Position numbers and translations under genes: made by a program
Shown here: one piece after another, positions 29,144 through 33,117 of the stretch
Layout of the letters: each line of letters opens with the position of its first letter
Numbering within the stretch: position 1 is the stretch's first letter
The notes under the pieces: generated by a model
Seen by the model: only the letters and a program-made list of their open reading frames with translations
What the model was told of the DNA's origin: nothing
Databases searched by the model: none
NCBI GenBank assembly: GCA_018400695.1
Contig: JAGYMF010000005.1
Span: 1-37,691 of the forward strand
Direction: 5' to 3'
Source: Bacteroidales bacterium
GTDB lineage: Bacteria > Bacteroidota > Bacteroidia > Bacteroidales > GCA-2748055
DNA length: 37,691 bases

Positions 29144-30436
29144 ATGAGCCTATTAAATAAGATTAAAGTACTCCCGCTTTGGGTGAAGATTTTTATAGGA
29201 ATGGGGTTGGGAATCCTGTTCGGACTGATCGCCGTTTGGACCTCATTGGAACAGTTAACGGTCGACTGGATTAAGCCCTGGGGCAATATCTTTCTGAAAC
29301 TATTAAAGCTTATCGCTGTACCCCTTATCTTTGTATCTCTTGTGAAGGGGATTTCCAGTCTGTCCAATATCTCAAAACTCTCCAGGATCGGACTTAAAAC
29401 AATTATTATTTACCTGATTACTACATTGATTGCAACAACTGTCGGACTTGGGCTTGTAAATCTGATTAAGCCTGGCAATGTATTTCCCGAAGAGCGCCAG
29501 GAGGAATACAGGGAGCGTTTCTTAGACGATATTAGTGATAAACAGTTTTTTGCTGATGAAATGCAGGAGCAGTCTCCTCTGCACTTCTTTGAGGAAATGA
29601 TCCCGGAAAATATTGTATTTGCTGCAGGCGACAATTCCAAGATGTTGCAAATTATCTTCTTTGCGATCCTTTTTTCTATAGCGATGGTATTGGTACCTGA
29701 AAACAGTGTCAGGGTGGTGAAAAACTTTTTTGATGGTCTGAATGATATTATCCTGAAAATCATCGATCTGATCATGCGGTTTGCCCCTGTTGGTGTTTTT
29801 GCACTGATGGCAGGTCTGGTTGTCGATTTTTCTGGCGATTCGGAGCTTTTTTCTGCACTCGGTATGTATATGCTTACTGCGGTTCTGGGATTATTGTTAT
29901 TGATTACAATCTTTTACCCTACGCTGATCAGGCTTTTTACGGGGATACGATGGAGAGATTTTTACAAAGGAATCCTGCCGGCACAGCTGGTGGCATTTTC
30001 GACAAGCTCAAGTGCAGCAACCCTGCCGGTAACCCTGAAGCAGGTTATCAACGAATTTAAGGTGCCTAAAACAATCGCCAACTTTGTCCTCCCGGTAGGG
30101 GTTACGATCAATATGGACGGAACATCCTGTTACCAGGCAGTTGCTGCTGTTTTCATTGCCCAGGTATTTGGAATGGACCTCACGGTAAGTCAGCAGCTTT
30201 CGATCGTCCTGCTGGCTACTGTTGCATCTATCGGATCTCCAGGCGTACCCGGTGGTAGTATTGTAATGCTGATTATCGTGCTGACATCAGTGGGGATTCC
30301 TGTTGAAGGACTGGCACTTATTCTGGGCGTCGACAGACCCATCGATATGCTGAGGACTGTAGTAAATATAACGGGTGACGCTACTGTTGCTTCGATAGTG
30401 GCTAAATCAGAAGGTGACCTGGGATATGAAGCTTGA
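29144..30436 (+). CDS. Dicarboxylate/amino acid:cation symporter (DAACS family)
   Basis: 430 residues with about eight membrane helices and two re-entrant loops. Diagnostic blocks are ISKLSRIGLKTIIIYLITT, the serine-rich re-entrant STSSSAATLP (near 285), the NMDGTSCYQAVAAVFIAQ helix (near 323) and SIGSPGVPGG, all hallmarks of GltP/DctA proteins. It imports glutamate, aspartate or C4-dicarboxylates with sodium or protons. The Asp/Arg residues of the last helix that set substrate choice read LILGVDRPIDMLRTVVNITGD. Located after the hydroxyacid dehydrogenase gene, it may supply its carbon, but substrate cannot be fixed from sequence. Confidence 0.94.
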   Translation: MSLLNKIKVLPLWVKIFIGMGLGILFGLIAVWTSLEQLTVDWIKPWGNIFLKLLKLIAVPLIFVSLVKGISSLSNISKLSRIGLKTIIIYLITTLIATTVGLGLVNLIKPGNVFPEERQEEYRERFLDDISDKQFFADEMQEQSPLHFFEEMIPENIVFAAGDNSKMLQIIFFAILFSIAMVLVPENSVRVVKNFFDGLNDIILKIIDLIMRFAPVGVFALMAGLVVDFSGDSELFSALGMYMLTAVLGLLLLITIFYPTLIRLFTGIRWRDFYKGILPAQLVAFSTSSSAATLPVTLKQVINEFKVPKTIANFVLPVGVTINMDGTSCYQAVAAVFIAQVFGMDLTVSQQLSIVLLATVASIGSPGVPGGSIVMLIIVLTSVGIPVEGLALILGVDRPIDMLRTVVNITGDATVASIVAKSEGDLGYEA

Positions 30437-30716: not shown

Positions 30717-30936
30717 AGGTTTGCTCAGTTCAGGCCTGATGTTCATATATTACTTTTAAAACTTTGTCTGTTTCCCAACTGCGAATTTAAACACCAAAAC
30801 ATTATATACATTACATATGTACACTAAATAAATACAAAAGTTAATATTAATCTGAAAAAATACATTTGTGAACCTATAGTAATTACAAAATTTAAGGAAA
30901 GTTACACACATGTATACATTTGTGGCATCAATAGGT

Positions 30937-30952
30937 GATTACAATTGTAATC
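30937..30952. promoter_or_regulatory. Perfect 16-bp palindrome GATTACAATTGTAATC
   Basis: The sequence equals its own reverse complement. It is the best of a family of ATTACA-N2-TGTAAT sites in this region; others are at 30810-30823 (partial), 30859-30872 (partial), 31347-31360 and 31395-31408. An operator for a dimeric helix-turn-helix protein, perhaps the XRE regulator at 31424, is the simplest reading. Confidence 0.55.
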
Positions 30953-31329
30953 GATTAAAACTACTTTACAAATCAAAAGTGTATACGCATAAAGAACTAT
31001 AAAACAAGTATATACATCACTTATATAAAGTAAAATACAGTTAATTTTAAGAATATATTGGACAATTCAGCTTTCATACTGTAAATACATCAAATTACAA
31101 CACTTAATATCAGTTACTTAATACGTTCTACTTAAATTGTCACTTTACTTAAGTTCAATATTGATGTATTTAAGCGTATCAGGCGCATGATAAAGGGTGC
31201 ATATTCTTAATGAATAAAATGATTTCGTTAATATTATGGAAATAGATTAATTTTGGTTTAGCCGGTTAATGTCTGTTCAGCATGATTGTCCTGGAATCTA
31301 CAGATTTTAAGCACAATCGAAATAAAATG

Positions 31330-31408
31330 ACATAAGTAAACAATGAATTACAATTGTGACATTCCATATTATTACATAAGTAAACATTATAATGATTACA
31401 TTTGTAAT
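31330..31408. repeat. Duplicated operator-like module upstream of the XRE gene
   Basis: The 13-mer ACATAAGTAAACA occurs at 31330-31342 and again at 31374-31386, 44 bases apart. Each copy is followed within 4-8 bases by an ATTACA-N2-TGT palindrome: ATTACAATTGTGAC (31347-31360) and ATTACATTTGTAAT (31395-31408). The second palindrome ends 15 bases before the XRE start codon, an ideal place for autoregulation. The palindrome may overlap the promoter itself. Confidence 0.65.
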
Positions 31409-31423
31409 AAATAATTTTCTGTT

Positions 31424-31954
31424 ATGGAAGATCGATTATTGAAGTTGCTTGACACCGAACAGTTATCTTCATCCAAATTTGCTGATGTCATAGGGGTTCA
31501 GCGTTCCAGTATTTCACACATCCTCTCCGGAAGGAACAAGCCCAGTTTTGATTTTTTACAGAAAATTTTAAGGGCTTTTCCAATGTTGAATGCTGATTGG
31601 TTGATCCTTGGTGAGGGAAATATGTATGAAGGGGAGCCCGGACCTCTCAGCGGCAGCCTTTTTGATCAGCCACTTACTTCTACAGACCAAAATAAGCAGG
31701 GAATAACTGATTCGGAGTTATCCTCTGCAGCTGCTACTGCGTCTGATTCCAAGACTGAATTTGATCCCATATCAGATTCTGTTACTGAATCCGGGCATGA
31801 AGCAGATACCCTGGTACAAGATGTAATACAGGGTGTTTCCCGTGCCGGGACTTCTCCCTCTCCAGAAAGGGGGGCAGGAAGAGGTGGAAAGAGCGTTTCC
31901 CGGATTATTCTTTTGTATGATGACAGTACCTTTGATGCGTATGATCCTGGCTGA
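31424..31954 (+). CDS. XRE-family helix-turn-helix transcriptional regulator
   Basis: 176 residues. The N-terminal 65 residues form an XRE (Cro/CI-type) DNA-binding domain: LSSSKFADVIGVQRSSISHILSG contains the helix-turn-helix, followed by KPSFDFLQKILRAFP and DWLILGEGNMY. Residues about 70-150 are a low-complexity Ser/Thr/Asp/Glu-rich linker, probably disordered. The C-terminal end, RIILLYDDSTFDAYDP, resembles a short motif I recall from other Bacteroidota HTH proteins (KIVxFYxDgTFexY). It is preceded by the palindrome-rich 987-base region, which suggests autoregulation. The target genes are unknown. Phage repressors share this HTH, but no phage gene is nearby. Confidence 0.88.
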   Translation: MEDRLLKLLDTEQLSSSKFADVIGVQRSSISHILSGRNKPSFDFLQKILRAFPMLNADWLILGEGNMYEGEPGPLSGSLFDQPLTSTDQNKQGITDSELSSAAATASDSKTEFDPISDSVTESGHEADTLVQDVIQGVSRAGTSPSPERGAGRGGKSVSRIILLYDDSTFDAYDPG

Positions 31955-32043: not shown

Positions 32044-33117
32044 ATGTACAGGTATTTCATCAGGCCAATCTTATTTCTGTTGTCACCGGAAGTAATCCAC
32101 CACTTGCTAACCTCCGGTGTGCGATTTTTATTTCGCTTACCTGGAGTGACAGCACTGATAAGATCTGTTTACACGGTTAAAGATCCACAGCTTACCACAA
32201 ACTTCCTGGGTATTGAATTCAATAATCCTGTAGGTCTGGCGGCTGGATTTGACAAGAACGGTGAGGTTTATAATGAGTTTTCTGATTTTGGGTTTTCGCA
32301 TATCGAGGTAGGTACCGTCACTCCGAAAGGGCAACCTGGCAATCCCAAACCCCGAAGTTTTCGTATACCAGCTGATAAAGGGTTGATCAACCGTATGGGC
32401 TTTAATAACCACGGTGTGGATGCACTTTTGGGAAGGCTGGAGCAGCAGCGCCGCAAGGGATTGATCATTGGTGGAAATATTGGTAAGAACACCCACACTC
32501 CCAATGAAAAGGCTGTAGAGGATTATGAAAACTGTTTTACTACGCTTTACGGGTATGTGGATTATTTCGTAGTCAACGTTAGCTGTCCAAACATCACCAA
32601 TATGCAAGCTTTGCAGGATCAGGATGCCTTAGATGCGATTCTGGGCCGTTTAGCGGACGTTAGAGCGCGTAAAAGCGAATATACACCCATTCTCCTCAAA
32701 ATTTCACCGGATCTGAACAGGAGCCAGATAGACACCTCTCTTGAGATGGTTGAAAAATATGGGATTGATGGTGTTGTTGCGAGCAATACGACAATTCGTC
32801 GCGACGGACTAGTTACATCAGATGCGAAGATTGATGCCATTGGCAACGGAGGAATGAGTGGTGCCCCAGTTACTTCTCGGAGCCTGGAGGTGGTCAGGTA
32901 TATTGCTGAAAAAACTGGCGGTAAGACGCCTTTAATTGGTGTAGGCGGAATCATGACTGTAGATGATGCACTGAACATGCTGGATGCCGGAGCCACGCTG
33001 ATACAGGTTTATACTGGATTTATTTACAACGGTCCGGGCTTTGTAAAAAGGATCAATAAAGCGATTCTGAAACGCAAAAAAAACAGTTTCAGAGAAACAA
33101 ATACTTTATCTGTATAA
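32044..33117 (+). CDS. pyrD: Dihydroorotate dehydrogenase (quinone), class 2
   Basis: 357 residues of the membrane-associated class 2 enzyme of pyrimidine biosynthesis, oxidising dihydroorotate to orotate with electrons passed to quinone. The N-terminal helices (YFIRPILFLLSPEVIHH) form the quinone tunnel that distinguishes class 2. FMN-barrel blocks are NPVGLAAGFDKNGE, GTVTPKGQPGNPKPR, INRMGFNNHG, the catalytic-serine segment VNVSCPN, LLKISPDL, ASNTT and GVGGIMT. It has its own -7 box with a very short leader. No other pyrimidine gene is adjacent. Secure. Confidence 0.97.
   Translation: MYRYFIRPILFLLSPEVIHHLLTSGVRFLFRLPGVTALIRSVYTVKDPQLTTNFLGIEFNNPVGLAAGFDKNGEVYNEFSDFGFSHIEVGTVTPKGQPGNPKPRSFRIPADKGLINRMGFNNHGVDALLGRLEQQRRKGLIIGGNIGKNTHTPNEKAVEDYENCFTTLYGYVDYFVVNVSCPNITNMQALQDQDALDAILGRLADVRARKSEYTPILLKISPDLNRSQIDTSLEMVEKYGIDGVVASNTTIRRDGLVTSDAKIDAIGNGGMSGAPVTSRSLEVVRYIAEKTGGKTPLIGVGGIMTVDDALNMLDAGATLIQVYTGFIYNGPGFVKRINKAILKRKKNSFRETNTLSV

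Follow-up and report, generated by a model that had tools for sequence, protein, structure and literature searches.

A two-cluster palindromic array with paired bend-type elements upstream of an XRE regulator gene conserved in Bacteroidales: a candidate looped autoregulatory operator

Why should one regulator gene in a Bacteroidales genome be preceded by several hundred base pairs crowded with near-identical palindromes? The locus lies in a stretch of 37,691 nucleotides (contig JAGYMF010000005.1, positions 1 to 37,691), analysed as a whole and here called the window. Within it, the region in question, 30780-31423, occupies the downstream two thirds of the gap between the first two of the following genes:

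29144-30436, co-oriented with the XRE gene in the window's family: upstream gene, an SDF (dicarboxylate) symporter, ending about 370 bp before the distal palindrome cluster
31424-31954, forward strand: XRE regulator of 176 aa (Pfam HTH_3, PF01381, 3.9e-9, 36.8 bits against a cut-off of 23), with orthologs in 101 of 118 genomes of the order
32044-33117, forward strand: pyrD, dihydroorotate dehydrogenase (Pfam DHO_dh, 5.8e-83), the usual downstream neighbour of the XRE gene

The region is 75% A+T, and its plus strand carries TACA 18 times and TGTA seven times, the former count agreeing with that of an earlier note in which the locus was described as a field of such motifs in 643 bases. The fourfold excess of TACA claimed there comes down to about twofold, because the AT richness is corrected for by dinucleotide-preserving shuffles of the same stretch (18 against 9.1 +/- 2.5 expected, with at least 18 in 0.1% of shuffles), while the reported crowding of 14 of the 18 into the first 320 bases holds (14 lie at or before 31096). 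The whole palindrome, TACANNTGTA, is a stronger signal than the TACA count: shuffles of 30780-31423 lead one to expect 0.1 exact copies, where three are found (30812, 30940 and 31397), and 1.35 copies with at most one mismatch, where eight are found, a number matched in none of 1000 shuffles. The statement that many TACA motifs belong to an ATTACA-N2-TGTAAT arrangement is borne out by these eight sites, but only three of the eight are exact and many TACA motifs are half-sites; a perfect 16-bp palindrome, also reported, is indeed present (GATTACAATTGTAATC, 30937-30952). The excess of sites is real, yet the field is not diffuse, since the palindromes are grouped in a distal cluster (30811-30950) and a proximal cluster (31348-31407) with a gap of about 400 bp between them. 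Because there are two clusters and not one, the array does far exceed a normal autoregulatory operator, as had been supposed. Its sites, listed without strand, are the following:

31396-31407: proximal candidate operator site 1, TTACATTTGTAA, identical in all 17 aligned same-family loci
31372-31383: proximal candidate operator site 2, TTACATAAGTAA, 24 bp from site 1
31348-31359: proximal candidate operator site 3, TTACAATTGTGA, 24 bp from site 2
30939-30950: distal candidate operator site, exact TTACAATTGTAA, within the 16-bp palindrome
30904-30925: two adjoining distal operator-like sites, CACACATGTA (30905) and TACATTTGTG (30915)
30860-30871: distal operator-like site, TACATTTGTG core at 30861
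30811-30822: outermost distal candidate operator site, TACATATGTA core at 30812

The reading that we consider probable is that of a conserved autoregulatory double operator with lambda-like geometry, in which the XRE-bound ends close a loop over the regulator's own promoter with the help of IHF/HU-type bends. XRE dimers would bind the TTACANNTGTAA-type palindromes in both clusters, and the proximal cluster, covering the XRE promoter, would block it, so that XRE would repress its own gene. The core of proximal site 1, TACATTTG (31397-31404), fits the -7 promoter box of Bacteroidetes, TAnnTTTG (PMC7366714); a TTTG at the -33 distance from any TAnnTTTG was not found in the window.

Comparison with related genomes, one of the checks proposed in the earlier note, reveals that the palindrome recurs in the two-cluster layout upstream of XRE orthologs across Bacteroidales, at almost all loci for which sufficient upstream DNA is available. 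The mean density over 102 non-identical loci is 5.6 sites per 700 bp, compared with 0.2 for the DNA 2.8-3.5 kb upstream; the histogram of site positions is bimodal, and the distances from site to site peak at 24, 34, 47, 58 and 69 bp. Counted from the start codon, the usual positions in the window's family are about -25, -49 and -73 for the proximal sites and about -505, -575 and -602 for the distal ones; they are similar in the other Bacteroidales clades, and the clusters of further families in the class stand nearer each other (about -22/-57 and about -256/-290/-314). In a set of 68 loci with less than about 80% identity, the proximal cluster yields 104 pairs of neighbouring sites, of which 57 are spaced by 22-24 bp and 13 by 32-34 bp. 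Spacing within a cluster is thus helical, with a dominant class of 23-24 bp and a second of 33-34 bp (Rayleigh p 3e-17, period 10.5), and as in a double operator the two palindrome clusters lie upstream of the regulator's own gene. Such sites in register, ahead of orthologous XRE genes both throughout Bacteroidales and in further families of the class, support the cooperative repressor platform that had been among the functions suggested for the array. The distance between the clusters, taken from the nearest distal to the nearest proximal site, shows no helical phasing (Rayleigh p about 0.17); this can be tolerated by a 400-bp loop with bends, and is expectable with flexible bent DNA, but it is not positive evidence for a loop.

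As a separate observation, at loci L161-L171, from families of the class other than the window's, the palindrome closest to the regulator gene overlaps its probable start codon (TTTACAATGGTAAAC) and so could act on translation start besides transcription.

Between the clusters lies a second element, M, in two copies, which the earlier note did not mention. It was found de novo by growing an ungapped profile from two conserved inter-cluster places, and the profile converged on an element of about 50 bp, conserved best at WA[TC]CA[GA]T-N3-TTA and, further to the right, at TTTAT-N-TAAAGTA and TTTAA. In the window its copies are:

30989-31046, forward strand: element M copy 1 (register 31003), family-left-out profile score 9.5, second-best match of the window
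31095-31152, forward strand: element M copy 2 (register 31109), family-left-out profile score 12.8, best match of the window

As a check on circularity, the profile behind these scores was trained without the window's family and run over the whole 37.7-kb window on both strands, where the best match outside the pair scored 5.0. The two copies are 106 bp apart, and the two top matches of this profile are separated by 105 or 106 bp in every same-family locus scored. Across 40 divergent loci with two copies, the distance is 104-106 bp in 23 and 114-116 bp in 13 (36 of 40 together), which corresponds to 10 or 11 helical turns of B-DNA. Most loci have M twice, with one copy or none at threshold in 27 of the 68 divergent loci. 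Above 18 bits, 89 matches fall in 63 upstream regions and none in 850 kb (strand-bases) of flanking DNA, a count for which the full training set, the window's family included, was used. At loci of other families of the class, alignment places one M-like stretch between the closer clusters, with weak profile scores; in a genome-wide search with the M model, AT-rich noise was not separable from true sites, and the XRE locus gave the best or nearly the best match in several genomes.

The core of M, although derived de novo, fits the IHF consensus WATCARNNNNTTR (PMC9519438), except that at the third position C is nearly as common as T. Copy 2 of the window contains an exact match, TATCAGTTACTTA (31108-31120), whereas copy 1 is IHF-like but degenerate, with AACAA replacing A[TC]CA[GA], and matches poorly. 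Matches to the consensus on the forward strand between the clusters number 31 against 5.7 expected. Genes of the HU/IHF family (PF00216) are present in three near-complete relatives, and none was found in the window's assembly, which is 69% complete. According to the favoured reading, the M pair would be bound by a DNA-bending protein of the IHF/HU type, and both bends would lie on the same face of the helix, because the spacing of M is fixed at 10 or 11 turns. The bends would then fold the DNA so that XRE at both clusters meets and the loop closes, which would make repression cooperative and switch-like.

At the same time, M reaches about 25 bp past the IHF consensus and could thus be the target of another protein. 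Such a specific protein, neither IHF nor HU, would co-regulate XRE or pyrD, for instance as a pyrimidine sensor, with the operator clusters working as in the looping model; the conserved TTTAT-N-TAAAGTA and TTTAA on the right of M, the preference of many clades for ACCAG within it and a neighbouring gene that encodes dihydroorotate dehydrogenase of either class would all suit this alternative. We nevertheless hold it to be somewhat unlikely, as the best conserved core of M is the IHF core and the phasing by 10 or 11 turns is the pattern that architectural sites would show.

Some further stretches of the inter-cluster DNA may be recorded here. In the window's family, a conserved CTTTCAAA-TTG-AA precedes each M (30964-30983 and 31064-31083), at about the same repeat distance, and may be the left arm of the candidate bend site. 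Alignment of most same-family relatives also reveals ATTATAA-N8..10-TTATAA followed by AATGCA between M copy 2 and the proximal cluster (about 31240-31290 in the window), and then, ahead of the proximal cluster, an inverted repeat AATAAG...CTTATT. A structured RNA between the clusters was considered and rejected, with no Rfam match in the window and no consensus fold or covariation in 10 relatives, as was a small conserved ORF, the alignments being without coding pattern.

From a structural point of view, the regulator consists of an N-terminal HTH_3 domain, a disordered linker and a C-terminal beta-hairpin with a motif of the type IxxIVIFYxDxTFxxYxP, as judged from Pfam and an AlphaFold2 model (pLDDT about 90 for residues 1-70, 82-86 for the 16 C-terminal residues). 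The nearest solved folds to the model are the HTH domains of 434 Cro/repressor, SinR and DdrO, and the parts of the protein that are conserved are the HTH and the short C-terminal motif. Orthologs were found in 22 of 28 genomes of the window's family, and in a sample of the phylum 19 of 118 genomes gave a match (E <=0.001), the strong ones all from the same class; the open-access papers searched yielded no literature on this regulator, its binding or its expression.

The system that comes closest in geometry is that of phage lambda, in which the operators of OR are spaced by 23-24 bp and CI, a repressor with a C-terminal domain, acts at the OL and OR clusters about 2.4 kb apart. Likeness extends to the HTH_3/XRE-type domain, to two clusters of about three palindromic operators with roughly 24 bp from centre to centre, and to a proximal cluster on what would be the regulator's own promoter. 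In contrast, XRE is a chromosomal core gene of a bacterial order and not part of a prophage, its clusters are only about 0.4 kb apart, and two bend-type sites lie between them. A second Pfam domain was not found in XRE, which has the disordered linker and short hairpin where CI carries its oligomerisation domain; because this CI-type C-terminal domain is absent, XRE is not called a member of the CI family.

Among the neighbouring genes, pyrD lies directly 3' of the XRE gene in most loci; pyrK and a class 1B pyrD take its place in Labilibaculum, Mariniphaga and some others, and some lineages have a different neighbour. This linkage to both classes of dihydroorotate dehydrogenase suggests that the regulator is functionally connected with pyrimidine synthesis, or at the very least co-transcribed. 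On the other side the upstream gene varies between clades, and in several clades outside the window's family it is divergent, so that the distal cluster, which also contains TAnnTTTG-like boxes, could serve it. The two clusters might then be independent operators without looping, the proximal one for XRE and the distal one for another promoter (that of a divergent gene or of a short transcript lacking annotation), with M binding a separate regulator of that promoter. This alternative appears unlikely. The symporter gene of the window's family is co-oriented and ends about 370 bp before the cluster, so the distal cluster there has no divergent promoter to serve; the similarity between same-family relatives starts at the outermost distal site (30811-30822); no conserved ORF or RNA fold was found between the clusters; and clades that differ in the upstream gene nevertheless retain the distal cluster and the M pair. 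In the looping model, by comparison, the distal cluster would act from about 400-480 bp upstream, and the window offers it no divergent gene to control.

A function beyond the gene was also weighed, namely that of a chromosome-organising site (partition, origin or terminus) where a nucleation platform would be built of the palindromes and bend elements, with the XRE gene a mere neighbour. Dense palindromes together with IHF-type sites are reminiscent of origins and transposition enhancers, and conservation throughout a class is unusual in simple operators. However, the array invariably accompanies the XRE start codon. In three closed chromosomes the position of the locus is about 0.49, 0.90 and 0.86 of the record, and it is not consistently placed relative to the skew switch in two closed chromosomes that were sampled for GC skew. 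The adjoining genes, an HTH_3 regulator and pyrD, include none of the ParB type, unlike what a parS/ParB system would have. We therefore regard this explanation as highly improbable, and the partition or nucleation site of the earlier note finds no support.

Judged by analogy, the parts of the proposed double operator are of known kinds, with counterparts in lambda OL/OR, in the Mu operator with IHF, in GalR/HU and in RcoLS20 looping. The early operator of phage Mu has the order O1-IHF-O2-O3 for its repressor, with one IHF site in one compact array; it resembles the XRE locus as a repressor array that contains an IHF site, whereas the latter has two bend-type sites, 10 or 11 turns apart, between separated clusters and no apparent transposition function. 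The GalR/HU repressosome of E. coli gal is comparable in that two operators are bridged with the help of an intervening HU-type bend, as proposed here, but relies on a LacI-family repressor, single operators and one HU site. To our knowledge, a small number of systems, in phages, plasmids and enterobacteria, are known to combine DNA-loop repression with architectural proteins. On the conjugative plasmid pLS20, the Xre-family regulator RcoLS20 acts at two multi-site operators with 8-bp motifs (CAGTGAAA), separated by a 75-bp spacer with a static bend; looping is supported experimentally, and a 5-bp insertion destroys regulation (PMC4207663). An Xre-family regulator with two multi-site operators is common to both systems, although looping at the XRE locus is our interpretation and the latter differs in its 12-bp palindromes, longer spacer and sequence-specific candidate bend elements. 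The combination of these parts, with order-wide conservation and in the setting of a core chromosomal gene, was not found in the open literature searched. If the reading is true, loop repression of a core chromosomal gene would be a conserved trait of an order to which major gut and marine bacteria belong, and the many natural variants would reveal which distances are kept constant, namely those within clusters and those separating the bend sites, and which drift, namely that from the bend sites to the proximal cluster. The locus also points to a previously undescribed regulator beside pyrimidine biosynthesis in Bacteroidales, and it yields precise predictions that are easy to test.

A genome search for the motif, likewise proposed in the earlier note, found exact sites to be rare beyond the XRE locus. 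The 1.96-Mb assembly has three copies of TTACAWWTGTAA, two of them at the XRE locus, and family genomes have 0-9 exact copies each against 0-4 for a reversed-pattern control, a large share of them at the XRE locus in many genomes; paired 24-bp sites away from that locus were at control level only. A wider regulon or a decoy array, the latter also suggested in the earlier note, was accordingly rejected, the exact sites elsewhere being few per genome, close to the control and none of them widely common to genomes. A more far-reaching version of the looping model, which we entertain tentatively and with a little less than even confidence, is that Bacteroidia maintain an ancient 'repressosome' around a single-copy regulator which is coupled to dihydroorotate dehydrogenase, whatever the class of that enzyme. 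Its clusters would be bridged across a pair of IHF/HU-type bends at a locked distance of 10 or 11 turns, and the whole would regulate essentially one locus.

A phage origin of the system was rejected too, since the PHROGs matches are generic HTH repressors and the sole near full-length match in a phage collection resembles a bacterial chromosome. This record (MT836585.1, locus L207, labelled bacteriophage and from human faeces) has a near full-length XRE homolog with the same two-cluster array, its sites at -23, -64 and -100 and at -435, -447 and -479, as in Alistipes chromosomes, and it is probably bacterial DNA labelled as phage.

Among the non-XRE sites inspected, the only location common to more than one genome lies between mgsA-like and mltG genes, where an exact TTACATTTGTAA is found in two family genomes (L151 and L156; G011 and G008); it is a possible second target. 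Finally, TGCAAATATACAAAAACTTGTTCTTACATTTGTA, a sequence that includes a 24-bp spaced operator-like pair and a TAnnTTTG box, recurs in several family genomes and twice in one of them (G008:C20:14207, G009:C102:72006, G009:C263:8687, G013:C184:2404 and G014:C144:5070), and is perhaps a repeated promoter or mobile element.
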